Origin: a virus
Virus record (IMG/VR): IMGVR_UViG_3300046507_000193
Span: 1 to 24,506 of that record
Direction: 5' to 3' (one strand)
Length of the DNA stretch: 24,506 nucleotides
Shown one piece after another: positions 1,525-18,236 of the stretch (position 1 is the first letter of the stretch; every line of letters begins with the position of its first letter). The notes under the pieces are model-generated. The model had not been told where the DNA came from, did no database searches, and worked only from the letters and a program-made list of their open reading frames with translations. The translations under genes were made by a program, and so were the position numbers.

Positions 1525-2406
1525 ATGAGCGCCCTCATCAAATACGACCAGGCCCGCCAGGCGCTTGCCGCTTGCCGCAGCGTCGACGAGATCAAGGATA
1601 TCCGCGACAAGTCGGAAGCAATGCGCTTGTACGCGAAGCAGGCCCAGGACACTGAGCTGGAGCAGTGGGCGGCCGAGATCAAGTTCCGCGCTCAACGTGC
1701 TCTCGGTGAGCTGAGCGCCACGCTGCCGACGCAGAAGGGTGGTTTCGGCATAGTTCCCACCGGTGGGAAGCATAAGGCCGAAGTGCTGGCCGAGGCGGGA
1801 ATCTCGACGTCGACCGCGAATCGTTACGAGAAGTTGGCGTCTATCCCAGAGCCCGTGATCGAAGAAATCATCGCCAAGAGCAAGGAGGACGGCAAGCCGG
1901 TTTCGGCAAAAGCTGTTCTGGCGAAGGCTGCGCCGCCGACGCCGCGCGCGCAACCGCGAGCACCCACCGGTGCTGCTACTTCGCCGACAAGCATCGCAAC
2001 CTCGCGCGATGACATGTCCGCGCCCGGCCCGGTCGAGATCATCAGTCCAGGTGTCAAGGATGACGCGACCATCGACGACGAGCATGACGATTTCGTTGAC
2101 AGGCTCGTCGAGGAGAACAAAGCACTTGCGGCCGACAATAAAGACCTGATTGACGAGGTAGCGCGGCTCAAAGAACGCATCAAGTTGCTGACGCAAGACG
2201 ACCTGGCCGCGCAGATAGACACCCTATCCGAGAAGTGCGCACGCTTCGATAGCTTGGCTTCGACACGTTACAGCACGATCAGCGACCTTGAGAAAACGAT
2301 CAAGGTCCAGCGCGGCTTCATCGACGGCCTGCGCCGAAGCGCTGGCCTTCCGAAAGGCGGCGACCTGGACGCATGGATTAAGCAAGCAGCGCAGAGGGCG
2401 GCATGA
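1525..2406 (+). CDS. Early phage protein with HTH-like segment and C-terminal coiled coil
   Basis: A 293-residue soluble protein. Residues 1-65 are helical with the pattern VDEIKDIRDKSEAMRLYAKQ, often seen at the start of phage DNA-associated proteins. Around residues 85-125 a segment containing GISTSTANRYEKLASIP resembles a ParB/KorB-like helix-turn-helix. A Pro/Ala-rich linker (about 130-175) follows, then a strong heptad coiled coil (about 190-245). Its stop overlaps the ATG of the downstream helicase by ATGA (2403-2406), so it is probably co-translated with it. A DNA-binding or replication-accessory role fits the context but is not proven; no enzymatic motif is seen. Confidence 0.75.
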   Translation: MSALIKYDQARQALAACRSVDEIKDIRDKSEAMRLYAKQAQDTELEQWAAEIKFRAQRALGELSATLPTQKGGFGIVPTGGKHKAEVLAEAGISTSTANRYEKLASIPEPVIEEIIAKSKEDGKPVSAKAVLAKAAPPTPRAQPRAPTGAATSPTSIATSRDDMSAPGPVEIISPGVKDDATIDDEHDDFVDRLVEENKALAADNKDLIDEVARLKERIKLLTQDDLAAQIDTLSEKCARFDSLASTRYSTISDLEKTIKVQRGFIDGLRRSAGLPKGGDLDAWIKQAAQRAA

Positions 2407-3920
2407 GCATCAATGTGAAACTCCGCCCATACCAGGTGCTGGCGCTGAAGAAGCTGTTTGCTGTGATGGCCGAAGGCGTTTTCAACACCGTATTCTCGCT
2501 GCCCACGGGCGCCGGCAAGACGATCTTGGCATGCTACCTAGTCGAGAAATGCGTCGAGCAAGACAAGCGCGTGATCTTCGTCGTCGACCGCATCCCGCTC
2601 ATTGAGCAGACCAGCGATACGTTCGACCGCCTCGGCATCAAGCACGGCATCATCCAAGGCGGCAATAAGCGCTGGGCGCCGGATCTACCCGTTCAAATTG
2701 GCAGCATCCAGACCCTACGGCATCGCGGATGGCCCGACGCGGACCTGATCATCGTCGACGAGTGCCACACCATGCATGCTGCGGTGATCAACCATATCAG
2801 CCAGCGCAAGGTGAAAGTGGTCGGGCTCACCGCCACTCCCATGACAGTTGGCATGGGCAAGGTTTATGACCGCCTCGTCACCTCCGTCACGACCAAGGAA
2901 CTCACCGACGGCCCGATGCTGCCGAACGGCGAGCGCGACCAATCGTATCTCGTCCCGTTTCGGCTCTTTGCGCCCAGCGAACCGGACATGGAAGGCGCGC
3001 CAACTAAGGCTGGCGAGTGGACGAGGGACGAGGCTGCACGGCGCTCGATGCCGATCATCGGCGATTGCGTCGGCGAATACGTGCGTCGCGCGATGGGCAA
3101 GAAGTTCATTGCGTTTGGCTGCAACGTCGCGCATTGCGAAGAGATGCAGCGCCAGTTCATGGAAGCAGGCGTCGTCACCGAGCTGTACACCTACCGAACC
3201 GATGATGACGCGCGCACTGCGTTAGTCGAGGAGTTCCGCAAGTCGGATAGCACGATTCGCGGCTTGATCAGCGTGGCCACCCTCAGCAAGGGCTTCGACG
3301 TCACCGACGTTGAGTGCGTCATCATGGCCCGTCCACTCAAGAAAAGCCTGGCTGAGCACATCCAGATTCTCGGCCGCGGCCTGCGCGGACATCAGGGCAA
3401 AACCGAGTGCATCGTCCTGGACCATAGTGGCAACTGCTATCGCTTTTGGGACGCCATGCATGACTTTATCGAGAACGGCGTCCACCAACTGGATGACGGC
3501 ACCCGCAAAGAGCGGCTGGCAGCAAAAGCAACTGCCGAGAAAAAGCCGATGAAGTGCCCGGACTGCGCGTGCTTGCATGACCCGTTGCCGGCATGTCCGT
3601 CCTGCGGGTTCATATACAAGCGTGCCACCGTAATCGAGAAAGTCGCCGGCACTCTGCACGAGGTCAAAGGCAAGTCAAAGAAAGCGGCACTGACACCAGA
3701 GTCGAAGCGTAAGTTCTATACCGAGCTTCGTCAGTACGCGCTTGATCACCAGAAGGGTGACAGCTGGGTGCTGGCCAACTACCGTGAAAAGTTCAACGAG
3801 TGGCCAGCGCCTGGAACGAAAGGACTGCCTCCGTCGTCGCCGTCCCCTGAAACACTGGGCTGGCTGCAGTACAAGCTCATCGCCTTCAAACGGTCCAAGG
3901 CGAAGGCAGCGCGAGCATGA
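2403..3920 (+). CDS. Superfamily 2 DNA/RNA helicase (DECH box)
   Basis: A 505-residue helicase with the full SF2 motif set in order: RPYQ (8-11), Walker A PTGAGKT (34-40), motif Ia region (58-69), Walker B DECH (119-122), motif III TATP (143-146) and motif VI QILGRGLR (321-328). Two CxxC pairs (Cys385/388 and Cys398/401) form a likely C-terminal zinc ribbon, followed by a basic tail. The family couples ATP hydrolysis to strand separation or remodelling of nucleic acid. Overlap by ATGA with both neighbours places it in one translational unit with the coiled-coil protein before it and the Toprim protein after it, so it is probably the phage replication helicase. No DnaB-type helicase is present in the window. 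Confidence 0.93.
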   Translation: MSINVKLRPYQVLALKKLFAVMAEGVFNTVFSLPTGAGKTILACYLVEKCVEQDKRVIFVVDRIPLIEQTSDTFDRLGIKHGIIQGGNKRWAPDLPVQIGSIQTLRHRGWPDADLIIVDECHTMHAAVINHISQRKVKVVGLTATPMTVGMGKVYDRLVTSVTTKELTDGPMLPNGERDQSYLVPFRLFAPSEPDMEGAPTKAGEWTRDEAARRSMPIIGDCVGEYVRRAMGKKFIAFGCNVAHCEEMQRQFMEAGVVTELYTYRTDDDARTALVEEFRKSDSTIRGLISVATLSKGFDVTDVECVIMARPLKKSLAEHIQILGRGLRGHQGKTECIVLDHSGNCYRFWDAMHDFIENGVHQLDDGTRKERLAAKATAEKKPMKCPDCACLHDPLPACPSCGFIYKRATVIEKVAGTLHEVKGKSKKAALTPESKRKFYTELRQYALDHQKGDSWVLANYREKFNEWPAPGTKGLPPSSPSPETLGWLQYKLIAFKRSKAKAARA

Positions 3921-4873
3921 GCACCTTCCAGCAATTCGTCGAGGCCAACGGCATCCTCGTGCCCGACACGTTCACGCCGGGCCGCTGGATCCGCTGCAGG
4001 ACCACCAACCACCCGCGCAAAAAGAACGGCAGCATCAAGCTCGCCGACGACGGCCAGGTCGGCTGGTGCCAGGACTACGCCGCGCACACCGAGCCGCTGA
4101 TGTGGCGCGCCGGCGATAACGCCGTGGCGGCCGCGCCGATCAGCCGTGAGGAGATCGCCCGGCGTCACGCCGAGCGCCGCGCCGCGCTTATCCAAGCAAC
4201 GCACGAGGCCCGCGCCTATTACGGGAAATGTACGCCGCTGCTCGACGGGCATCCGTACCTGACTCACAAGCTGCTCGGCATGGAGGGCTGTCTCGGCCTA
4301 CGCGTCGACGCGGCCGGCTGGCTCGTGATCCCGATGCTCTACAACGGCAAGGTGCTGAGCCTGCAACGCATTTCGCCCGAGGGCGAGAAGAAATTCCACG
4401 CCGGCGCCACGACCAAATACGCGTACTACGCCATCGAGCGGCCGCGCGCCGCCATCACGGTGCTCGTCGAGGGTTTCGCCACCGGCCTGACTCTGTTTCA
4501 GGCCGTCCCGAACTGCCGCGTCATTGTCGCATTCAACGCCGGCAACCTGTCGCTCGTCGCCGAACGCATGGAGCGTCGCGGCATGGCTGTCGTGTGCGCC
4601 GACAACGACCACGAGACGGAAAAGCGCATTGGCCGCAATCCCGGCCTGGATGCTGCCCACGCGGCCGCCGAGCTGCTGGGCGTGGGCGTCGCTTTCCCGA
4701 CGTGCGAAGGCACCGACTGGAACGACTACGTGACCGAACAGATGGAACTGGCCTACGAGGGCCAGCAGTTCAGCTTCAGTCGCAAGCGTACGGCCCTGCA
4801 GATTCAGGCTGCCGTGTTCGCCGACGTGAAGCTGAAGGTGATGCGCCAAGCGCGGCTGATGCGCGCGAAGTAG
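3917..4873 (+). CDS. Toprim-domain primase-like protein
   Basis: A 318-residue protein. The Toprim fold shows the catalytic Glu in VEGFATG (Glu185) and the metal-binding DND motif (229-231), followed by GLDAAHAAAELL and a closing TDWNDY segment. The N-terminal 60 residues contain Cys27, His32, Cys51 and His57, possibly a reduced zinc-binding region as in phage primases, but the classic CHC2 spacing is not seen. The likely role is making RNA primers, or a related phosphotransfer step, for phage DNA replication with the helicase encoded just upstream (ATGA overlap). A basic helix closes the protein. It is the last gene of the replication block and is followed by a strong hairpin. Confidence 0.88.
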   Translation: MSTFQQFVEANGILVPDTFTPGRWIRCRTTNHPRKKNGSIKLADDGQVGWCQDYAAHTEPLMWRAGDNAVAAAPISREEIARRHAERRAALIQATHEARAYYGKCTPLLDGHPYLTHKLLGMEGCLGLRVDAAGWLVIPMLYNGKVLSLQRISPEGEKKFHAGATTKYAYYAIERPRAAITVLVEGFATGLTLFQAVPNCRVIVAFNAGNLSLVAERMERRGMAVVCADNDHETEKRIGRNPGLDAAHAAAELLGVGVAFPTCEGTDWNDYVTEQMELAYEGQQFSFSRKRTALQIQAAVFADVKLKVMRQARLMRAK

Positions 4874-6683: not shown

Positions 6684-6714
6684 TTGGAAATTTCCAGTCG
6701 GCACGTGTTAACAT
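6684..6714 (+). promoter_or_regulatory. Palindromes and possible promoter upstream of the Q-like gene
   Basis: The 124-bp leader before the Q-like gene contains two perfect palindromes, TGGAAATTTCCA (6685-6696) and TGTTAACA (6706-6713). TTGGAA (6684-6689) with TTAACA (6708-6713, 18-bp spacer) or TAACAT (6709-6714, 19-bp spacer) is a possible but imperfect sigma70 promoter overlapping both. A regulator-controlled start for the Q-like gene is plausible. Confidence 0.35.
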
Positions 6715-6741: not shown

Positions 6742-7173
6742 ATGAACGCTATCGCGACGGCCGGCACCTTGAATGCACCCGCTCTGCGCCGCGTGCGCCG
6801 CGAAGAAATTCGCAATACCGCGTTCACGAGGCCCGACGGTCTGGAACTGTGTTTGGCGTGCTGGAAAGACTGGATGACTGGCGACCAGGATAACGACCTG
6901 GGCGTGAAAACGATGCGCGGCCTGACCGGTGAAGGCGAGGGCGGGCCGGACATCTACGAGGCGCAGCAGGTGGCCGACCAGCGTATTGGCGCCGCGACCG
7001 ACGCCATGATCAACGGTCTCAGCCGGATCCACGTCTGGGCCATCTACCGTTCGTGCAGCATCGCCACTGTGTGGAAATTCCCGAATGCCGATCTGCTGGC
7101 GATCGTCGCCGAGGCCAAGGAACAACTGGCCGAGAAGCTCAAGCAGAATGTTTGCACGGCAACGCTTTTCTGA
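6742..7173 (+). CDS. Candidate late antiterminator (Q-like), 143 aa
   Basis: ATG at 6742 follows AGGAG with a 6-nt gap. Apart from an Arg-rich N-terminal patch (RRVRREEIRNTAF, about residues 16-28) and a Cys/Trp-containing segment (LCLACWKDWM), the protein ends in a long helical region with the conserved-looking core AIYRSCSIATVWKFPNAD and a charged C-terminal helix. I cannot assign a Pfam family by eye. The case for Q function is positional: it is the last rightward gene before the late region, and a strong promoter, short leader and intrinsic terminator begin at its stop codon, as in the lambda Q-pR'-tR' unit. Alternatives are a transcription activator or an unrelated phage protein. Confidence 0.6.
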   Translation: MNAIATAGTLNAPALRRVRREEIRNTAFTRPDGLELCLACWKDWMTGDQDNDLGVKTMRGLTGEGEGGPDIYEAQQVADQRIGAATDAMINGLSRIHVWAIYRSCSIATVWKFPNADLLAIVAEAKEQLAEKLKQNVCTATLF

Positions 7174-7179
7174 TATAGT
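7152..7179 (+). promoter_or_regulatory. Strong extended -10 promoter (pR'-like late promoter)
   Basis: TTGCAC (7152-7157), a 16-bp spacer and TATAGT (7174-7179) with an extended -10 TG at 7171-7172. The TGA stop codon of the upstream gene supplies that TG, so the whole promoter lies in the 3' end of that gene. Start of transcription is expected near 7184-7188. It drives the short leader ending at 7242 and, if antiterminated, the late operon. Confidence 0.72.
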
Positions 7180-7185
7180 CAAGGC

Positions 7186-7242
7186 TCAGGCGGACTTCGT
7201 TCGTCCAGAGAAAAGCCCGGATCGTAAACGTCCGGGCTTTTT
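7186..7242 (+). ncRNA. Short leader RNA between late promoter and terminator
   Basis: The predicted transcript of about 55-60 nt starts just after the extended -10 promoter and ends at an intrinsic terminator. It has a small hairpin GGAC/GTCC (7192-7195 with 7203-7206) and then the terminator stem. By analogy with lambda 6S RNA, this is the default product when the antiterminator is absent. Start position is estimated. Confidence 0.5.
7211..7242 (+). terminator. Intrinsic terminator (tR'-like)
   Basis: GCCCGGA (7215-7221) pairs perfectly with TCCGGGC (7231-7237) around a 9-nt loop, with an A4 run before the stem and a T5 run after it. It is a strong canonical terminator 50-60 bp downstream of the late promoter. 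Confidence 0.9.
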
Positions 7243-7521
7243 GCGTTTACGTCCCTTCGCATGAGGTGCCCCATGAAGCACTAACCCGACTTGAGTCTGG
7301 TCATCACGTAGAAGCGCGACGAGACGCGCACGGGATCACAGTTGCCCGATGAGTGCCGGAGCGCCCGCCCGGCGACACTCAAGAGACGGCGCCACAAGCA
7401 CACAGAACACGAGCTGGCATCGGCCAGAACAGGCGAGCGTCTACCCGGGCGCGCTAACGCCGCCGGACGCTGTACCCGGCAACGAATGTCCCTCCAGGTA
7501 AGCGCCGGCCCGTCGCTGACG
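7243..7521. other. Non-coding gap between leader terminator and hicB
   Basis: No convincing gene on either strand. A GAGGTG-preceded ATG at 7273 opens a frame that stops after three codons (TAA) and again at a TAG nine codons later, which could be a decayed gene start. The plus-strand frame continuing from 7342 is Arg-rich, has only a TTG start, and overlaps hicB; I read it as chance. No terminator for hicB with a T-run is visible. Confidence 0.5.
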
Positions 7522-7935
7522 TCAGGTCACGGCCAGGTCGAGATCTCGGCCGAGCGCCTTGAATGCCGCCGCCAGCGTGTCGATCTTGGTCGCGTGATCG
7601 AGATTCACGATGCGGTTCACCTCCTGCGGTTTCAAGTCCATCAGTCGCGCCAGGTCGGCGGGCCGCACTTTCTGGGCAAGCATCTCGTTCAGAAGCATCA
7701 CCTTTGCCGATGCGCTCAGCGGAAGTTCGATAAGCCGTTCGCCCTCGACCGCTTCAGACGGCAGTGGGACCGGGCGCCGGTCTTCGAAGTAGAAGTCCAT
7801 CGCTGTAAGTAGGGCGCTCGCGCCCTCGATAAGCGCATCGGCCTCATCGTCACCTTGGGCGATCGCTTCGGGGATATCGCGGAACGTAACGATGACGGCG
7901 CCTTCTGCGAAGTCAAATTTAGCAGGGTATTTCAT
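7522..7935 (-). CDS. hicB: HicB-family antitoxin with C-terminal HTH
   Basis: A 137-residue protein. ATG at 7935 is chosen because GGAG lies 6 nt upstream; a TTG twelve bases earlier is less likely. Residues 1-60 form the degenerate RNase H-like HicB domain (MKYPAKFDFAEGAVIVTFRD, then IPEAIAQGDDEADALIEG), and residues about 88-137 contain an XRE-type helix-turn-helix (ADLARLMDLKPQEVNRIV). HicB binds and inhibits the HicA RNase and represses the hicAB promoter. It follows hicA by 66 nt, with a hairpin between the two. The HTH-type DNA-binding end is one of the two known HicB classes. It points against the surrounding late operon. Confidence 0.93.
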   Translation of the reverse strand: MKYPAKFDFAEGAVIVTFRDIPEAIAQGDDEADALIEGASALLTAMDFYFEDRRPVPLPSEAVEGERLIELPLSASAKVMLLNEMLAQKVRPADLARLMDLKPQEVNRIVNLDHATKIDTLAAAFKALGRDLDLAVT

Positions 7936-7973
7936 AGTGCACTCCAATGCGATGTTAGGTCTGGTGCAGTAGA

Positions 7974-7999
7974 GGGCAAACCCCTTTCGGGGTCTGCCT
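7974..7999 (-). promoter_or_regulatory. Hairpin between hicA and hicB
   Basis: GGCA (7975-7978) and ACCCC (7980-7984) pair with GGGGT (7989-7993) and TGCC (7995-7998) around a TTTC loop with a single mismatch. It starts 2 nt after the hicA stop and lacks a U-tract. Since HicB must usually exceed HicA, an mRNA-processing or stabilising role is a reasonable inference. Confidence 0.5.
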
Positions 8000-8001
8000 C
8001 C

Positions 8002-8178
8002 TTATTTCATTCCGAGTTGTTTTTTGACTACCTCGACATACTGGTTCGTAAGTTCTTTACCGGGATGTCGATCCACTGAGGTTTGTTTCCCGTTGTAGTA
8101 GGCTTTCAAGTGACCTTTTCCGTTCTTGAGAACCACACCTTGGGACTTCAACCACCGTACAAACTCAGTCTGTTTCAC
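8002..8178 (-). CDS. hicA: HicA toxin, mRNA interferase
   Basis: A 58-residue double-stranded-RNA-binding-fold protein. GTG at 8178 is chosen because a strong AAGGAGG lies 6 nt upstream. The family hallmark is present: a Gly-rich loop before the catalytic His in GKGHLKAYY (His23), then TSVDRHPGKEL and a C-terminal helix ending VVKKQLGMK. HicA cleaves mRNA and tmRNA and is held in check by HicB. The order hicA-hicB is the usual one. A promoter and inverted repeat lie directly upstream. The cassette would act in plasmid-style maintenance of the prophage or in exclusion of other phages; which one cannot be told from sequence. Confidence 0.94.
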   Translation of the reverse strand: MKQTEFVRWLKSQGVVLKNGKGHLKAYYNGKQTSVDRHPGKELTNQYVEVVKKQLGMK

Positions 8179-8209
8179 TGCACCTCCTTGTTGTGTTGTC
8201 GATGTAGAG

Positions 8210-8252
8210 ATAATAAACAAAAACGTTTATACATGCAAGCATTTTTGTTTAT
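8210..8252 (-). promoter_or_regulatory. hicAB promoter with flanking operator arms
   Basis: Reading leftward, TTGCAT (8238-8233), a 17-bp spacer and TATTAT (8215-8210) form a near-consensus sigma70 promoter. A perfect 11-bp inverted repeat, ATAAACAAAAA (8213-8223) and TTTTTGTTTAT (8242-8252), brackets it, with one arm on the -10 and the other just upstream of the -35. This fits autorepression by the HTH domain of HicB. Confidence 0.75.
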
Positions 8253-11168: not shown

Positions 11169-11507
11169 ATGCTGAAACCCACCGGCAACCGCATCGTCGT
11201 CCGCATGGACGAGAACATCCAGACCGGCATCGACGGCTTCATCCTGCCGGCCAAGACCGACGCCTGGCGCGCGAAAGACGGCGCCATCACCGGCGAGGGC
11301 CGCGGCGTGGTCGTCGCGGTGGGCCCCGGCGCCCGCCACCCGAAGACGGACAAGCTGATCCCGATGGCCACGCTGATTGGCGACGTCGTGCGTTTCTCCG
11401 ACCTGCAGTACCACAGCTGGACCGAAGAGGGCCACAAGTACGCCCTGATCAGCGAGATGGACGTGCTGGGCGTGGAGATGCCGCACCCGGTGGAGGCTGC
11501 AGCGTGA
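11169..11507 (+). CDS. GroES/Cpn10-like co-chaperonin
   Basis: A 112-residue protein with the order of Cpn10 features: N-terminal LKPTGNRIVVRMDE (as in the LRPLHDRVIVK start of GroES), a mobile-loop region (TGIDGFILPAKTDAW), GEGRGVVVAVGPG, then GDVVRFSD, a roof-like insertion, and YALISEMDVLGV, which matches the ending ILIMSESDILAI of GroES. GroES caps GroEL so that proteins fold inside the cage. Phage versions (gp31 of T4 is the known case) adapt the host GroEL to fold the coat protein. Here the gene sits in the structural operon, shortly before terminase and coat. Divergence from host GroES in the loop is expected; the similarity is read by eye. Confidence 0.8.
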   Translation: MLKPTGNRIVVRMDENIQTGIDGFILPAKTDAWRAKDGAITGEGRGVVVAVGPGARHPKTDKLIPMATLIGDVVRFSDLQYHSWTEEGHKYALISEMDVLGVEMPHPVEAAA

Positions 11508-11756: not shown

Positions 11757-12311
11757 ATGCCGCGCCCGTCCAAACTGACAGACGCGCAGTGGGAGAAGAT
11801 CGGTAAGCGCCTGCTCGCCGGTGAATCCCCATCTGCGCTCGCCCGTGAGTTCGGCGTGAGCAAGTCGACGATCTCCGGGCGTTTTTCCGAACGCGTAAAA
11901 AACGTAAAAGATGCAGCAAATCAAATAGTTGCGGCAGAGAACGCGCTGTCGAAGCTAAACGTTTCCGAACAAATAGCCGCACGTTCGCTTGCCGACGACC
12001 TAAAGGCGATCAGCCAGCACCTGGCCGGCGCAGCGCGCTTCGGTGCCGCGACCGCACACCGACTGTCCGGCATCGCACACAGCAAGGTTGCCGAGATCGA
12101 CGACGCCGCGCCGCTCGATGCCGAAAGCCGTGATGCCCTGACCGACGTCGCCGCACTGACCAAGATGGCGAACGAGGCCAGTGAGATCGGCATGAACCTG
12201 CTGAAGGCGAACAAGGACACCATCGACGATCTGAATAAGCGCGCCACGGAGAAGGCCAGCCCGGCCAATCCGGAGCGCAAGACCGTCTTCAAGATCGTGA
12301 GGTCAGAATGA
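11757..12311 (+). CDS. terS: Small terminase subunit
   Basis: A 184-residue protein. GGAG (11746-11749) lies 7 nt before ATG. The N-terminus is a helix-turn-helix (LTDAQWEKIGKRLLAGES, then ALAREFGVSKSTISGRFSE, residues about 6-44) that would bind the packaging site. The rest is a long helical oligomerisation region (LADDLKAISQHLAGAARFG and ALTKMANEASEIGMNLL), ending in a basic tail. The overlap of four bases with the large terminase gene (ATGA, 12308-12311) and the HTH type fit the small subunit of a headful packaging enzyme. No other candidate is present. Confidence 0.87.
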   Translation: MPRPSKLTDAQWEKIGKRLLAGESPSALAREFGVSKSTISGRFSERVKNVKDAANQIVAAENALSKLNVSEQIAARSLADDLKAISQHLAGAARFGAATAHRLSGIAHSKVAEIDDAAPLDAESRDALTDVAALTKMANEASEIGMNLLKANKDTIDDLNKRATEKASPANPERKTVFKIVRSE

Positions 12312-13762
12312 GCGCCGCGCTCGACGAGCTGGAGCCGCTTGAAATCGAGCTGTTCGAAGCGTTCGAGTTCCTGTTGTACCCAAAGCGTATCAAGGTCCCG
12401 TTCGGCGGCCGTGGTGGCGCCAAGACGGAGGAAATCGCCGAGATCCTCGTCTGGATGATGTGGCAGTACGGCATCAAGGTACTGTGCGCGCGCGAGTTCC
12501 AGAACTCGATTGAGGAATCGAGCAAGGCCGTGCTCGAGGCGAAGATTGAAAAGCTGGGCTTGAGCGACTTCTTCGAGATCCAGAATGACGGCATCTACGG
12601 CCGCAATGGATCGAAGGCGAAGTTCGTTGGCCTGGCGCGGAACATCGCATCGATCAAGTCGAAGTTCGGCTACAACGTCGTGTGGGTGGAGGAGGCCGAA
12701 AACGTCAGCGAGGACAGCTGGAAGGTGCTCGTGCCCACCGTCCGCGAGAACAACTCGGAAATCTGGGTGAGCTTCAACCCGAACGAACCTGACGCGCCGA
12801 CCTACACGCGCTTCGTGCTGCCGTATATCGAGCACATCAACAAGGAGATCGCAGCGGGCCGGCCGGGCGTGTACGAGGACGACTACACGTACGTGCGCAA
12901 GGTCTCGTACCGGGACAACCCGCGCTTCCCCGAGGTGCTCCGCATCGAGATGGAGCGCGACAAGAAGGCCAACTACAAGAAGTACCTGCACGTGTGGGAA
13001 GGCGAGTGCAACGCCGACTACGAGGATTCGGTGATCGAACCCGAGTGGATCGACGCGGCCATCGATGCTCACACGAAGCTGAACTACAAGCCGCGCGGCG
13101 ACCGTGTCGTGGGCTTCGACCCTGCCGACAGTGGGACCGACGCGAAGGCGATCACGAAGCGCTACGGCATGCTCGTCGAGGACGTGAAGCGCTGGAGCGA
13201 CGGCGACATCGACGACGCTGTAACGCGCACGTTCGACGATGCATTCGACTACCGGGCCGACATCATCGTGTACGACAGCATCGGCGTCGGCGCCGGCGTG
13301 AAGGTCGGGCTGAAGGAACGCATCGCGGGCCGGAACATCGATGTCCAGGGCTTCGGCGCTGCCGACTCGCCGTGGCCTGGCGTCTACGAGAAGGACCGCA
13401 AGAACGAAGACGTCTTCAGGAACCTGCGTGCGATGGGCTGGTGGCTGCTGCGTGACCGCTTCAAGCGCACGTACGAAGCCATCGTGAAGGGTGAGTATCA
13501 CGATCCGGCAACGATGATCAGCCTGTCGAGCGACATCAAGGACCTGCAGCAGCTCAAGACGGAATTGGTCCGCCAGCAGCGCAAGCGCACCGCGGGTTCG
13601 AAGATGATCCAGCTGGTGAGCAAGGACGAGATGAGGGCGAAGAAGATCCCATCGCCGAACATGGCTGACAGCCTGATGATGGCCTTCATGGTCAAGGACA
13701 AGCGCAAGCCGCGCGAAAACAAACACGACATGCCGTCCGATGTGGGCGACTGGATGGGCTAA
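12308..13762 (+). CDS. terL: Large terminase subunit, ATPase and nuclease
   Basis: A 484-residue packaging motor. The N-terminal ATPase has Walker A GGRGGAKT (33-40) and Walker B VVWVEE (124-129). The C-terminal RNase H-like nuclease shows three spaced acidic residues: Asp271 in VGFDPAD, Asp323 in IIVYDSIGVG and Asp454 in NMADSLMMAF. It cuts concatemeric DNA and pumps it through the portal. Length and motif order match PBSX/P22-type large terminases. It overlaps the small subunit gene by ATGA and is followed by the portal after 3 nt. Confidence 0.96.
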   Translation: MSAALDELEPLEIELFEAFEFLLYPKRIKVPFGGRGGAKTEEIAEILVWMMWQYGIKVLCAREFQNSIEESSKAVLEAKIEKLGLSDFFEIQNDGIYGRNGSKAKFVGLARNIASIKSKFGYNVVWVEEAENVSEDSWKVLVPTVRENNSEIWVSFNPNEPDAPTYTRFVLPYIEHINKEIAAGRPGVYEDDYTYVRKVSYRDNPRFPEVLRIEMERDKKANYKKYLHVWEGECNADYEDSVIEPEWIDAAIDAHTKLNYKPRGDRVVGFDPADSGTDAKAITKRYGMLVEDVKRWSDGDIDDAVTRTFDDAFDYRADIIVYDSIGVGAGVKVGLKERIAGRNIDVQGFGAADSPWPGVYEKDRKNEDVFRNLRAMGWWLLRDRFKRTYEAIVKGEYHDPATMISLSSDIKDLQQLKTELVRQQRKRTAGSKMIQLVSKDEMRAKKIPSPNMADSLMMAFMVKDKRKPRENKHDMPSDVGDWMG

Positions 13763-13765
13763 TAC

Positions 13766-15886
13766 ATGGCACGCAAGCAGACACAGACCGACGAGCCCAG
13801 CGCGATCGTCAAGGAAGCGCTCAAGCGGTTCCAGCGGAGTGAGGAGGCCGAGTCGGAATTCCGTACGCGCTTCGTCAATGACGTGAAATTCGCAAACGGA
13901 GACTCGGACAACGGGTGGCAGTGGGAAGACGACAACAGCCGAACCCGCAAGGCCAGCGGCCGGCCGTGTCTGACGATCAACAAGGCCCGTCAGCACTGCC
14001 TGCAGATCATCAACGATGCGAAGCAGAACAAGCCGAACATCAAGACGCTACCCATCGACGGCAAGGCCGATGTCCAGATCGCGAAGATCCTGGATGGCGT
14101 CGTGCGCCACATCGAGTACAACTCGCACGCGGAGATCGCCTACGACACGGCGACCGAATTCGCGGTGCAGGGCGGTATCGGTTACTGGCGCGTCGTCACG
14201 GAGTACGCCCACGACGGCTCGTTCGATCAGGAGATCTTCATCCGGCGCGTGAAGAACCCGCTGACGGTGTACCTCGATCCGGACATCCAGTCTGGCGACG
14301 GCTCGGACGCGAAATATGCGTTCGTGTTCGAGGATATGAGCAAGGAAGAGTTCGAGGCCACGTATCGCGGCGTCGACGGCGCCGACATCGTGTTCCCGAG
14401 CGCGGGGCAGGGTAGCGGGTGGCTCAGCAAGGACCGCATTCGCATCTGCGAGTACTTCTACAAGACCGTGCGCAAGGACGTGCTCATCGCGCATCCGGAG
14501 AAGGGCCCGGTGCTGCTCTCCCAGCTGGACGACGACGAGCGCAAGGCTGTCGAGGCCAACAAGGACATCAAGCGCCGCACGGTGGAACAGCCCATCATCA
14601 AGTGGTGCAAGATCGCCGGCAACCGCGTGATCGAGGAGAGCGACTGGCTGGGCCGCTACATCCCGATCGTGCGCGTGGTGGGCGAGGAAATCGACATCGA
14701 CGGCAAGATCGAGCGGAAGGGCCACGTGCGCCCGCTCAAGGATCCGCAGCGCATGTACAACTTCATGACGTCCGCGCAGACCGAGTTCATCGCGCTGCAG
14801 ACCAAGACGCCATTCGTCGCGGCCGTGGAAGCGATCGAGGGCTACGAGGACATCTGGAAGAACGCGAACCAGCAGAACCGCCCATACCTGCCGTACAACG
14901 CATGGGACGACCAGGGGCACGAGATCCCGCGCCCGCAGCGCGAGCAACCGCCGGTTGGTGCTCAAGCCTACCTGACGGCGATGCAGACCGCGCAGCAAGA
15001 GTTGATGATGGCGTCGGGCCAGTACCAGGAGAACTTCGGCCAGCAGAGCAATGCCAATGCCGGCGTAGCGATCCAGGCACGGCAGCGGCAGGGCGATAAG
15101 GCCACGTACCACTTTATCGACGGCCTGGCGCGCGCGATCCGCTTCACTGGCCGGATCCTGATCGACCTGATCCCGAAGGTCTACGACACGGCGCGCGTGC
15201 TGCGCATCGTGGGCGAGGACGGATCGGAACAGTTCGCGCAGATCGATCCGAACAGCCCGCATCCTGTGATGGATCCGGCCACTGGCGAACCTGTCCAGGC
15301 AAACCCGGACGCGCCGATGTCGATCGAGGACGCCGCGAAGCTGATCTACAACCCGGGCATCGGGCGCTATGACGTGACCGTGGAGGTGGGCCCGAACTTC
15401 GAGACGCGCCGCCAGGAAGCATTCAACGCGTTGACACAGATCATGGGCCAGGACAAGGACCTGATGAAGGTGGCCGGCGATCTGCTGTTCAAGGCCGCGG
15501 ACTTCCCAATGGCGCAGGACGTGGCCGAGCGGATCCGGCGCACGATCCCGCCGGCCGTGTTGGGCAGGGGACCGAGCCCGCAAGAGCAGGACATGCAACA
15601 GAAGATGTCGCACATGGGCGAGATGATCGAACACCTGTCGCAACAGCTGCAGGCGGCGCAGCAAAGCCGCGAGCAGCAGGAAACGAACATCAAGGCGTAC
15701 GACGCTGAGACGAAGCGTTTCACGGCGCTGGGCCAGCCGGTCGATCCGCAGCTTGTCGCGCACCTGGCGACGCAAGTCGTGATGCAGATGATGCAAAGCG
15801 GACCGCCCGAAGGACAACCGCAACCCGAGCAGCCGGCGCAAGCCGGTTTTTTTTCGCCTGAACAGACACAAGGACAACCGCAATGA
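13766..15886 (+). CDS. P22-type portal protein
   Basis: A 706-residue protein matching the size and start of P22 gp1-like portals: charged N-terminal helix, FANGDSDNGWQWEDDNSRTR, RPCLTINKARQHCLQIINDA, then AVQGGIGYWRVVTEYA, NPLTVYLDPDIQSGDG and a long helical barrel region near 400-600. The C-terminal 120 residues are Gln/Glu-rich (EMIEHLSQQLQAAQQSREQQ), consistent with the barrel. It forms the dodecameric ring through which DNA enters and leaves. The gene's last 60 bp are unusual: they hold an intrinsic-terminator-like hairpin and a direct repeat that duplicates the ribosome binding site of the next gene. Confidence 0.94.
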   Translation: MARKQTQTDEPSAIVKEALKRFQRSEEAESEFRTRFVNDVKFANGDSDNGWQWEDDNSRTRKASGRPCLTINKARQHCLQIINDAKQNKPNIKTLPIDGKADVQIAKILDGVVRHIEYNSHAEIAYDTATEFAVQGGIGYWRVVTEYAHDGSFDQEIFIRRVKNPLTVYLDPDIQSGDGSDAKYAFVFEDMSKEEFEATYRGVDGADIVFPSAGQGSGWLSKDRIRICEYFYKTVRKDVLIAHPEKGPVLLSQLDDDERKAVEANKDIKRRTVEQPIIKWCKIAGNRVIEESDWLGRYIPIVRVVGEEIDIDGKIERKGHVRPLKDPQRMYNFMTSAQTEFIALQTKTPFVAAVEAIEGYEDIWKNANQQNRPYLPYNAWDDQGHEIPRPQREQPPVGAQAYLTAMQTAQQELMMASGQYQENFGQQSNANAGVAIQARQRQGDKATYHFIDGLARAIRFTGRILIDLIPKVYDTARVLRIVGEDGSEQFAQIDPNSPHPVMDPATGEPVQANPDAPMSIEDAAKLIYNPGIGRYDVTVEVGPNFETRRQEAFNALTQIMGQDKDLMKVAGDLLFKAADFPMAQDVAERIRRTIPPAVLGRGPSPQEQDMQQKMSHMGEMIEHLSQQLQAAQQSREQQETNIKAYDAETKRFTALGQPVDPQLVAHLATQVVMQMMQSGPPEGQPQPEQPAQAGFFSPEQTQGQPQ
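15810..15883 (+). repeat. 14-bp direct repeat offset by 60 bp at the end of the portal gene
   Basis: AAGGACAACCGCAA occurs at 15810-15823 and again at 15870-15883. The second copy supplies the ribosome binding site and the first base of ATG for the next gene. The copies are 60 bp apart, so 20 codons lie in the repeat unit and the portal frame is kept (both copies encode GQPQ). Confidence 0.85.
15831..15854 (+). terminator. Intrinsic terminator inside the portal coding region
   Basis: CCGGC (15833-15837), GNRA-type loop GCAA, GCCGG (15842-15846), extendable by a G-U and an A-U pair, followed by eight T (15847-15854). It lies 32 bp before the portal stop and is read through in frame as AGFFS. 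Confidence 0.75.
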
Positions 15887-16191
15887 GCTATCCCGGCACC
15901 CTGCAAGACCTGGGCTCCAGCCCGACGCAAATCACCGGCTTCTACCGCATCGTGCAGACCCTGACGCCGGCGGCGGTGGGTGCCAATACCACCAGCGAAC
16001 AGACGTTCACCGTACCCGGCGTGCTGCCGGGTGACTCGGTCGACATCAACAAGGCATCGCACCAGGTCGGCCTCGGCATCCTGAACGTCGTCGTCAAGGC
16101 CGCGAACCAGCTGGCGATCACCTACGGGAACACGACGGGCGGCAGCATCACGCCGACCAGTGAGCAATACATCATCGGCGGCATGCGCTAA
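15883..16191 (+). CDS. Small structural protein, 102 aa
   Basis: ATG 15883 overlaps the portal stop (ATGA); AAGGA lies 8 nt upstream. The protein is Gly/Thr/Ser-rich and beta-like: MSYPGTLQDLGSSPTQITGF, TLTPAAVGANTTSEQTFTVPG, VLPGDSVDINK, LNVVVKAANQLAITYGNTTGG. The VPGVLPGDSV segment occurs in many small phage virion proteins. It lies between portal and scaffold, where P22 has no gene, so it is probably a lineage-specific decoration or neck-associated protein. A terminator follows. Confidence 0.7.
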   Translation: MSYPGTLQDLGSSPTQITGFYRIVQTLTPAAVGANTTSEQTFTVPGVLPGDSVDINKASHQVGLGILNVVVKAANQLAITYGNTTGGSITPTSEQYIIGGMR

Positions 16192-16207
16192 CCCGCACCG
16201 CAAATCC

Positions 16208-16238
16208 GGGCCGCTTCCAGCGATGGGGCGGCCCTTTT
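16208..16238 (+). terminator. Terminator-like hairpin before the scaffold gene
   Basis: GGGCCGC (16208-16214) pairs with GCGGCCC (16228-16234) around a 13-nt loop, followed by T4. A 7-bp GC stem with a short T-run: a moderately strong terminator. Confidence 0.65.
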
Positions 16239-16286
16239 CATTTCACCGTACCGGCGCGAATCACCGGGCCCTTACTTGGCTAGACC

Positions 16287-17021
16287 ATGCAAACCGAAGA
16301 CCAAAACCCGCTTCAATCCGGATCGCCTACGGAAACCGACCAGGCGCAAACGCTCGCACAGGACCCATCGGAATCGAGCACCGAGCCATCCGAGCACGCC
16401 AACGAACCGCCGCAAGAGCAGCAAAAGCCCAAGACCGATTGGGCACAACGGCGCATCGATCGGCTGACCTGGGAAAAAAACGAGGAAAAGCGACAGCGCG
16501 AAGCCCTCGCCGCCGAACTGGCTCAGTACCGGCAGCCGACCGAGCAGCAGCAACAGCAGCAGCACGGCCAGCCGCAGGACATCGACCAGCTCGTCGAGCA
16601 GCGCGCCGCCGCGAAGATCGCCGACCAGAACTTCAACCAGGCTTGCAACCGCGTGTTCGATGCTGGCGTGAAGGCTGATCCGAACTTCAAGGCCAATTTG
16701 GCCACGCTGCAAAGCGTTGGCGAGATCACGCGCGACTTCCTGGAGCTCGTGACCGACATGGACGAGGGCCACAAGGTCCTGAACCACCTCGGCGCGAACC
16801 CGGATGAGGCCGATCGCATCCTGGCGCTTCCTCCGCTCAAGCAGGCGCGCGAACTGGCCAAGCTCGAGGCATCCCTCGGCAAAGCCGCGCCGCCGCCCCC
16901 TGTATCGAAAGCCCCCGCCCCGATCACCCCTGTCGGCAGCAAGGCCGCTCCGGTCGAACCGGAAAGCTTCGCATCGACCGCGGACTACATCGCGTGGCAC
17001 AAACAAAACCGTAAGCGATAA
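16287..17021 (+). CDS. Scaffolding protein
   Basis: A 244-residue, highly charged, helical protein directly before the coat gene, as in P22 (gp8). The first 50 residues are polar and disordered (Glu/Gln/Ser/Thr/Pro). A coiled coil follows (WEKNEEKRQREALAAELAQY, about 62-82), then a polyglutamine run (six Gln) and a helical middle. A Pro/Ala linker (about 200-220) precedes a C-terminal helical tip with TADYIAWHKQNRKR; scaffold proteins use a basic helix-turn-helix at their C-terminus to bind coat. It would direct coat assembly into procapsids and then leave or be degraded. Confidence 0.85.
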   Translation: MQTEDQNPLQSGSPTETDQAQTLAQDPSESSTEPSEHANEPPQEQQKPKTDWAQRRIDRLTWEKNEEKRQREALAAELAQYRQPTEQQQQQQHGQPQDIDQLVEQRAAAKIADQNFNQACNRVFDAGVKADPNFKANLATLQSVGEITRDFLELVTDMDEGHKVLNHLGANPDEADRILALPPLKQARELAKLEASLGKAAPPPPVSKAPAPITPVGSKAAPVEPESFASTADYIAWHKQNRKR

Positions 17022-17033
17022 GGAAGTAACACC

Positions 17034-18236
17034 ATGGCAAATACTTTGCTCAACACCTCCAAGATCCTCGACCACTCGCTGATGATCCTGGATAACAATC
17101 TGGTCATGAGCTCGCGCATCAACCGCGAGTACTCGGACGAATTCGCCCAGTCGGGCGCCAAGGTCGGCAGCACCGTCAACGTGCGCAAGCCGGTCCGCTT
17201 CGTCGGTCGTAACGGCGCCAACCTGGCGGTCGAGAACGTGGCGGAAACCGTCGTTCCGGTCGTCCTGGATACGCAGTTCGGCGTCGACTTCCAGTTCAGC
17301 TCGACCGAGCTGACCCTGAATATCGACGAGTTCTCGGAGCGTTACTGCGACCCGGCGATGGAGACGATCGCCAACCGTCTGGACCTGTCGTGCACCTCGC
17401 TGTACACGACCGTCCCGAACCAGGTCGGCGTCGCTGGCACCACGCCCAATGACATCAGCGTCCTGCTGGATGCGGGCGTGCGCCTCGATAACGAAGCGGC
17501 ACCGCGCGGCAAGCAGCGTTGTGTCGTGTGGGATCCGGCAGCGAACGGCAAGATGGTCAAGTCGACGGCCGGCCTGCTCAACCCGTCCAGCAAGGTCGGC
17601 GAGCAGTACGAATCGGGCATGTTCGTCCCTGCGCTGGGCTTCGACATCGGCATGGACCAGAACATCGTCGTGGCCACGACCGGCACGCGCACCAACGGCG
17701 CCGTCGCAGGTGCAGGCCAGACCGGCTCGACCCTGAACGTTTCCAGCCTTGGCGCTGGCGCGACCGTAGAGGCTGGCGCAACGTTCATCCTGCAGAACGT
17801 GTTCGGCGTGAACCCGCAGTCGCGCCAGTCGACCCGCGTGGCCCGCCAGTTCACCGTGCTGACCGCAGCAACCGCTGACGGCGCGGGTAATGCGGCGCTG
17901 TCGATCTTCCCGCCGATCAACACCGTGGCTTCGAACCAGCAGTATCAGACCGTCACCGCCGGCCCGGCCAACGCCGCAACGCTGACCTGGGACGTCGCTG
18001 CGAACACGCAGTACACCGTGAACCTGGCATTCCACAAGAACGCCTTCACGATGGCCACCGCCGACCTGATCGTGCCGAACGGCGTGGACATGTCGGGCGC
18101 CCGTAACCACAAGGGCATCCGGATGCGTTTCATCCGCCAGTACACGATCAACTCCGACCAGCTGCCGGCGCGTTTCGACGTGCTGTACGGCGTGCGTCCG
18201 ATCTACAACGAACTGGCCTGCCGCATCGCTGGCTGA
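17034..18236 (+). CDS. Major capsid protein, P22 coat family
   Basis: A 400-residue protein beginning MANTLLNTSKILDHSLMILD with AAGGA upstream. Recognisable stretches of the P22 gp5-type coat family: SRINREYSDEFAQSGAKVGS, TVNVRKPVRFVGRNGANLAV, VPVVLDTQFGVDFQFSS and the C-terminal DQLPARFDVLYGVRPIYNEL. It forms the icosahedral shell with the HK97-like fold. It is a little shorter than P22 gp5 (430 residues). Codon use is the most strongly G/C-ending in the window, as expected for an abundant protein. It follows scaffold by 12 nt and is followed by a terminator. Confidence 0.95.
   Translation: MANTLLNTSKILDHSLMILDNNLVMSSRINREYSDEFAQSGAKVGSTVNVRKPVRFVGRNGANLAVENVAETVVPVVLDTQFGVDFQFSSTELTLNIDEFSERYCDPAMETIANRLDLSCTSLYTTVPNQVGVAGTTPNDISVLLDAGVRLDNEAAPRGKQRCVVWDPAANGKMVKSTAGLLNPSSKVGEQYESGMFVPALGFDIGMDQNIVVATTGTRTNGAVAGAGQTGSTLNVSSLGAGATVEAGATFILQNVFGVNPQSRQSTRVARQFTVLTAATADGAGNAALSIFPPINTVASNQQYQTVTAGPANAATLTWDVAANTQYTVNLAFHKNAFTMATADLIVPNGVDMSGARNHKGIRMRFIRQYTINSDQLPARFDVLYGVRPIYNELACRIAG

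Follow-up and report, generated by a model that had tools for sequence, protein, structure and literature searches.

Probable late promoter on the stop codon of a phage gene

What does a phage protein do when its gene ends in a promoter that is followed by a short leader and a terminator? The gene in question (positions 6742 to 7173, plus strand) lies in a 24.5-kb virus record, IMGVR_UViG_3300046507_000193 (positions 1 to 24,506; 24,506 nt), the whole of which is called the window here. It is an open reading frame for a protein of 143 aa with a TGA stop at 7171 to 7173, and it is the final gene 5' of a putative late promoter. Replication genes for a ResIII-type helicase and a Toprim protein (2403 to 4873, plus strand; Pfam) lie upstream. 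The late genes (11757 to 18236, plus strand) comprise a predicted TerS, a terminase large subunit (Pfam match, 8.9e-40), a predicted portal, and a predicted capsid. In relatives, homologues of the helicase and Toprim genes are found upstream and those of TerS, TerL, and portal downstream, as expected. We conclude, with a probability of about 0.84, that this protein acts in late transcription as a Q-like processive antiterminator, with a target promoter that lies across the 3' end of its own gene; the start site, DNA binding, loading, and antitermination are what we infer. Two other features of the neighborhood were seen: a pair of HicB-like and HicA-like toxin-antitoxin genes on the minus strand (7522 to 8220), inserted after the leader terminator and ahead of the late genes, and an open reading frame that by eye resembles a GroES-type co-chaperonin (11169 to 11507).

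The promoter region comprises the last eight codons and the stop codon of the Q-like gene. The extended -10 (7171 to 7179, plus strand) consists of the TG of the stop codon (7171 and 7172), an A shared with that codon, and TATAGT (7174 to 7179). An earlier note on this DNA, made from the sequence alone, had already placed the TG of the extended -10 within the TGA stop, and this was borne out by the sequence and by conservation in relatives. The same note had set the -35 one base off, at TTGCAC (7152 to 7157) with a 16-bp spacer. Codon alignment with the TTGCAA or TTGCCA of diverged members puts the homologous -35 at TTTGCA (7151 to 7156, plus strand), within Val-Cys-Thr codons and with a 17-bp spacer. 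A promoter scan of the window alone gave 3 hits in 3 kb, compared to 1.0 ± 1.1 expected. The window by itself is thus weak evidence, and relatives were therefore gathered. The promoter on the stop codon was confirmed, the comparative evidence being decisive.

The Q-like gene may also have its own promoter. A palindrome, GGAAATTTCC (6686 to 6695), followed by an extended -10-like TGTTAACAT, lies 5' of the gene (6686 to 6714) and is retained in several close relatives. The putative promoter (TG-T-TAACAT; 6706 to 6714, plus strand) lies 3' of the palindrome and was recognized by eye in the close relatives. Together, these elements possibly form the promoter and operator of the gene.

Family of related proteins

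Relatives were gathered stepwise (6, 16, 25, and then 67 viral loci), and five bacterial contigs were added (Massilia aquatica, M. rubra, Duganella flavida, Rugamonas aquatica, and a Burkholderiaceae metagenome-assembled genome). Of 294 genomes sampled from the host family, 30 gave further matches. The collection comprised 101 family members, some of them near-identical. The family has diverged to about 40% identity with the promoter and the protein gene still together. A search of 50,697 GenBank phage records returned no relative, and a literature search of incomplete coverage found no paper describing the protein family or the stop codon overlap. The proteins are likely an undescribed, widespread family of Q-like antiterminators that act as late-gene switches in phages of Massilia-type bacteria. 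One contig (IMGVR 3300048929_000326) carries two family members (L084 and L099), one of which was matched over residues 74 to 143 only.

Selection on the overlap between gene and promoter

We scored a -10 when at least four of six positions matched, including A2 and T6. By this measure, a -10 lies directly after or on the stop codon in 60 of 101 members, compared to 35 of 1,303 control open reading frame ends in the same loci (2.7%). In some other members the -10 is shifted by one or two bases, and L037, L057, and L098 are among those that have no such promoter at the stop. Among 53 dereplicated members, the -35 keeps a constant place in the codon alignment, 17 bp ahead of the -10. The Val/Ile codon at the -35 ends in T in 31 of 35 cases (background, 20%; P = 3e-16) and the Ala codon is GCA in 15 of 20 cases (background, 16%; P = 2e-8), both P values being nominal because the sequences share ancestry. 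The biased codons spell TTTGCA or TTGCAA. The choice of stop codon tracks the promoter: TGA is used by 30 of the 32 members whose -10 comes after the stop, and TAG or TAA by all 21 members in which the stop starts the -10 (TAGAAT or TAAACT). This choice of codons shows that the promoter within the gene is kept by selection.

Where the promoter lies at the stop or close to it, codon identity among close relatives is 0.71 in the last seven codons and 0.58 in the rest of the gene. The corresponding values are 0.34 and 0.52 in six relatives, a small number of sequences, that have the promoter elsewhere. The apparent relaxation of the codon constraint in the latter supports selection on the DNA. 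In L038, L051, L052, L054, L056, and L066, another gene is inserted after the Q-like gene, and a sigma-70-like promoter is still found directly ahead of the same leader and terminator. The promoter, leader, and terminator are therefore a kept unit, and the overlap is usual but not obligatory. The inserted small genes differ between phages, making this a possible moron site; that of L054 has, by eye, a membrane-associated look.

Leader, terminator, and late genes

The promoter is predicted, from the spacing to the -10, to start transcription at 7186 ± 2 and thereby to yield a leader RNA of about 57 nt (7186 to 7242, plus strand). Sequence and fold identify an intrinsic tR'-like terminator at its end (7211 to 7242, plus strand), with a G+C-rich 7-bp stem (GCCCGGA and TCCGGGC), a 9-nt loop, and T5. 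The RNA from 7186 to 7245 has a predicted folding energy of -27.9 kcal/mol (z = -3.9). A simple scan for terminators missed 7211 to 7242, presumably because the loop exceeds the 8-nt limit of the scan. Most promoter-bearing relatives have a terminator at the same place, and one about 25 to 60 nt 3' of the promoter is kept ahead of the late genes in phages in which those genes differ. The short leader (55 to 60 nt) and intrinsic terminator described in the earlier note are thus supported. In L103, reading of the sequence after position 4342 suggests that a tRNA gene-like sequence adjoins the leader hairpin and replaces the usual terminator.

A 5'-proximal hairpin (GGCGG..TTCG..CGTCC; 7189 to 7206, plus strand) is predicted with moderate support in the window leader and in almost all of the 43 leaders folded (mean z = -1.3). 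The motif G-N6-TTYG occurs in 23 of 46 leaders, compared to 2.3 ± 1.4 in shuffled sequences, an enrichment for which the TTCG loop of this hairpin may be the whole reason. Beyond the terminator, the late leader contains, to judge from DNA identity and compensatory changes, an untranslated element that is conserved (7405 to 7490, plus strand). Its DNA identity reaches 95.9% over 73 nt, in relatives whose Q-like proteins are about 70% identical, and its consensus fold has three stems with compensatory changes at four pairs. A search of the window against Rfam matched no family.

The downstream same-strand open reading frame encodes a terminase large subunit in 9 of 10 diverse members tested and a tail protein in the tenth. 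These terminases span several unrelated PHROGs, meaning that the module sits ahead of the late genes in otherwise different phages. In the closest cases, TerS begins 126 to 473 nt past the stop. These parts, from the Q-like gene and the promoter on its stop through the short leader and terminator to the late operon, form a conserved module.

Relationship of the protein to known antiterminators

None of 61 members gave a convincing match to a Pfam, PHROG, or NCBIfam family, and a sequence search of the PDB with the family found no match. None of the 61 matched the lambda-type Q profiles (PF03589 and phrog_127), which lambda Q itself, as a control, matches at 6e-58 and 7.6e-83, respectively. Direct searches with PF06530 and phrog_79 were likewise negative (0 of 61 members; for PF06530, also 0 of 15 records). 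The protein is not assigned to PF03589 or PF06530, since no member matched these profiles directly, in agreement with the earlier view that it is not obviously a lambda, 21, or 82 Q. Direct alignment of the family profile to those of QuuD/21Q and lambda Q, both very thin target profiles, was insignificant, as was that to the profile of an ECF sigma factor. PF06530 hits in 300 genomes of the order were also considered as candidates and rejected; those inspected were mostly ECF-type sigma factors.

Two diverged homologues provided a bridge. Both L229 and L231 align to the profile of the family over nearly their full length (E = 7e-9 and 6.5e-8, respectively) and also hit phrog_79, "anti-termination protein Q-like" (1.1e-3 and 3e-5). 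QuuD of the Escherichia coli prophage DLP12 belongs to phrog_79 (1e-52) and matches 21Q in the PDB (7.6e-7). Through these intermediates, the family is linked to phrog_79 (QuuD/82-type Q) as a remote relation. This sequence bridge and the fold described next are independent of each other.

An AlphaFold model built from 61 sequences had a pLDDT of 79 (41.5 with a seven-sequence input). Its eight best structural matches were to sigma region 4, AlpA, and 21Q only (Z = 4.8 to 5.5; the next was 2.9), with 21Q aligned over 84 residues at 3.9 Å (Z = 5.1) and AlpA at a Z score of 5.3. Foldseek with the model found no significant match in the PDB. A Z score of about 5 indicates a possibly common arrangement, and with the Foldseek result this makes the fold likeness of the model to sigma region 4, AlpA, and 21Q suggestive only, also with respect to the N-terminal ring-forming segment and C-terminal helix-turn-helix fold of Q-like antiterminators. 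The comparison with known Q proteins that the earlier note had proposed therefore placed 21Q and AlpA among the best structural matches, at weak Z scores, and gave nothing significant with Foldseek. That note had also suggested a distinct processive antitermination system. The Q kind is supported by the phrog_79 bridge, the module, and the weak fold likeness; instead of "distinct", the family is better termed undescribed but of a known kind, Q, with remote QuuD/82 kin.

Alternative explanations

Helix-turn-helix activators are common at phage late promoters, and the protein could be one of them (RinA/ArpU-like or sigma-like), recruiting RNA polymerase to the promoter on its stop codon, with a terminator that does no more than separate early and late transcription. 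The presence of sigma region 4 among the fold matches and the lack of a conserved -10-like pause element (see below) would fit such an activator. However, a good extended -10 leaves the promoter in no obvious need of help, the terminator about 25 to 60 nt downstream is kept in phages with different late genes, and the sequence bridge leads to phrog_79, an annotated antiterminator. We consider an activator unlikely. A still weaker case can be made for a promoter that produces a regulatory short RNA (6S- or antisense-like), of which the terminator is the 3' end and to which the 143-aa protein is unrelated. A discrete RNA of about 57 nt with a conserved 5' hairpin is indeed predicted, but the promoter and the protein gene stay together at about 40% identity, the stop codon and the -10 change together, and the late genes begin immediately afterwards in several phages (the TerS distances given above), all of which makes this explanation very improbable. 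That TATAGT at the stop is a chance or compositional artifact, and no promoter, might be argued from the scan of the window, which was barely above expectation; given the excess of promoters over control gene ends, the codon bias, and the loss of constraint where the promoter is elsewhere, we give this hardly any credence.

Proposed mechanism of late-gene control

As a Q-like antiterminator, the protein would be a product of the early operon. The sigma-70 RNA polymerase of the host would initiate at the promoter across the 3' end of the antiterminator's gene, and transcription in the absence of the protein would end after about 57 nt at the terminator (7211 to 7242). The protein may bind promoter DNA through its sigma region 4-like C-terminal helices, at a site within the last codons of its own gene, and then load onto RNA polymerase that has just begun transcription. 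By analogy to 21Q and AlpA (PMC6606751 and PMC9371919), the RNA exit channel would then be narrowed so that terminator hairpins cannot form, and the polymerase would read through 7211 to 7242 and later terminators into the late genes.

The DNA signals for these steps were sought in the relatives. A -10-like pause element (NANNNT) is not conserved: in no register do more than 7 of the 46 leaders carry it, a count with which a degenerate pause signal is possible. A 21Q-like direct-repeat binding site was rejected (best matches, 6.02 compared to 5.89 in shuffled sequences), as was a repeat at 30-bp spacing, for which the slight excess (0.349 compared to 0.316 expected) was unconvincing. The -35 sequence (TTGCAA or TTGCAC) is conserved, yet it lies inside coding sequence, with no supported direct repeat beside it. 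A more specific scheme is tentative and, in our judgment, rather doubtful: the binding site and the target promoter would both lie inside the gene's own last codons and stop, and loading would occur without a -10-like sigma-dependent pause, perhaps helped by the 5' RNA hairpin. Under this scheme, the protein and its target would be inherited as one piece.

The results add an unannotated antiterminator family to a group of which few examples are known, and such a family would account for the control of late genes in phages of the Massilia/Duganella type. A target promoter in the coding end of its regulator would be a compact self-targeting module, movable between phages whose late genes are unrelated. 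As the family apparently lacks a -10-like pause element, a diverged member allows a direct test of a core requirement of the Q mechanism.

Comparison with known systems

Targets of lambda Q, 21Q, and AlpA contain a -10-like pause element, which has been called required for 21Q and AlpA (PMC6606751 and PMC9371919), whereas none is conserved in the family leaders. The target site of 21Q is a direct repeat between the -35 and the -10 (PMC6606751), which was not found in the family. AlpA of Pseudomonas aeruginosa (alpBCDE; PDB 7xyb) is the founding member of a class of antiterminators that have no sequence similarity to lambda Q (PMC7969949). An ABE at -25 to -14 and the -10-like CACGAT are features of its promoter (PMC9371919), and a terminator lies shortly downstream, as here. 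AlpA is a host programmed-death regulator, and the text on AlpA that was consulted describes no overlap of the promoter with its own gene. The family shares a W..W N-terminal helix and a helical layout with QuuD of DLP12 and the phage 82-type Q (PF06530 and phrog_79) and with 21Q (PDB 6jny and 6p1a). The link to QuuD/82-type Q runs through L229 and L231, with no direct profile match, and no promoter was seen at the stop of quuD.

Lambda Q belongs to PF03589, which the present family does not match. Counted on the sequence, the -35 of lambda pR' lies 42 nt and its -10 about 65 nt past the Q stop, whereas the promoter here is on the stop; the lambda leader is 194 nt, compared to about 57 nt. The initial region in lambda, GGTTAATTCG, is similar to the G-N6-TTYG of half the family leaders. 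The likeness to lambda Q/pR'/6S RNA/tR' that the earlier note had recognized extends to the relatives: gene, promoter, short leader, terminator, and late genes follow in the same order.
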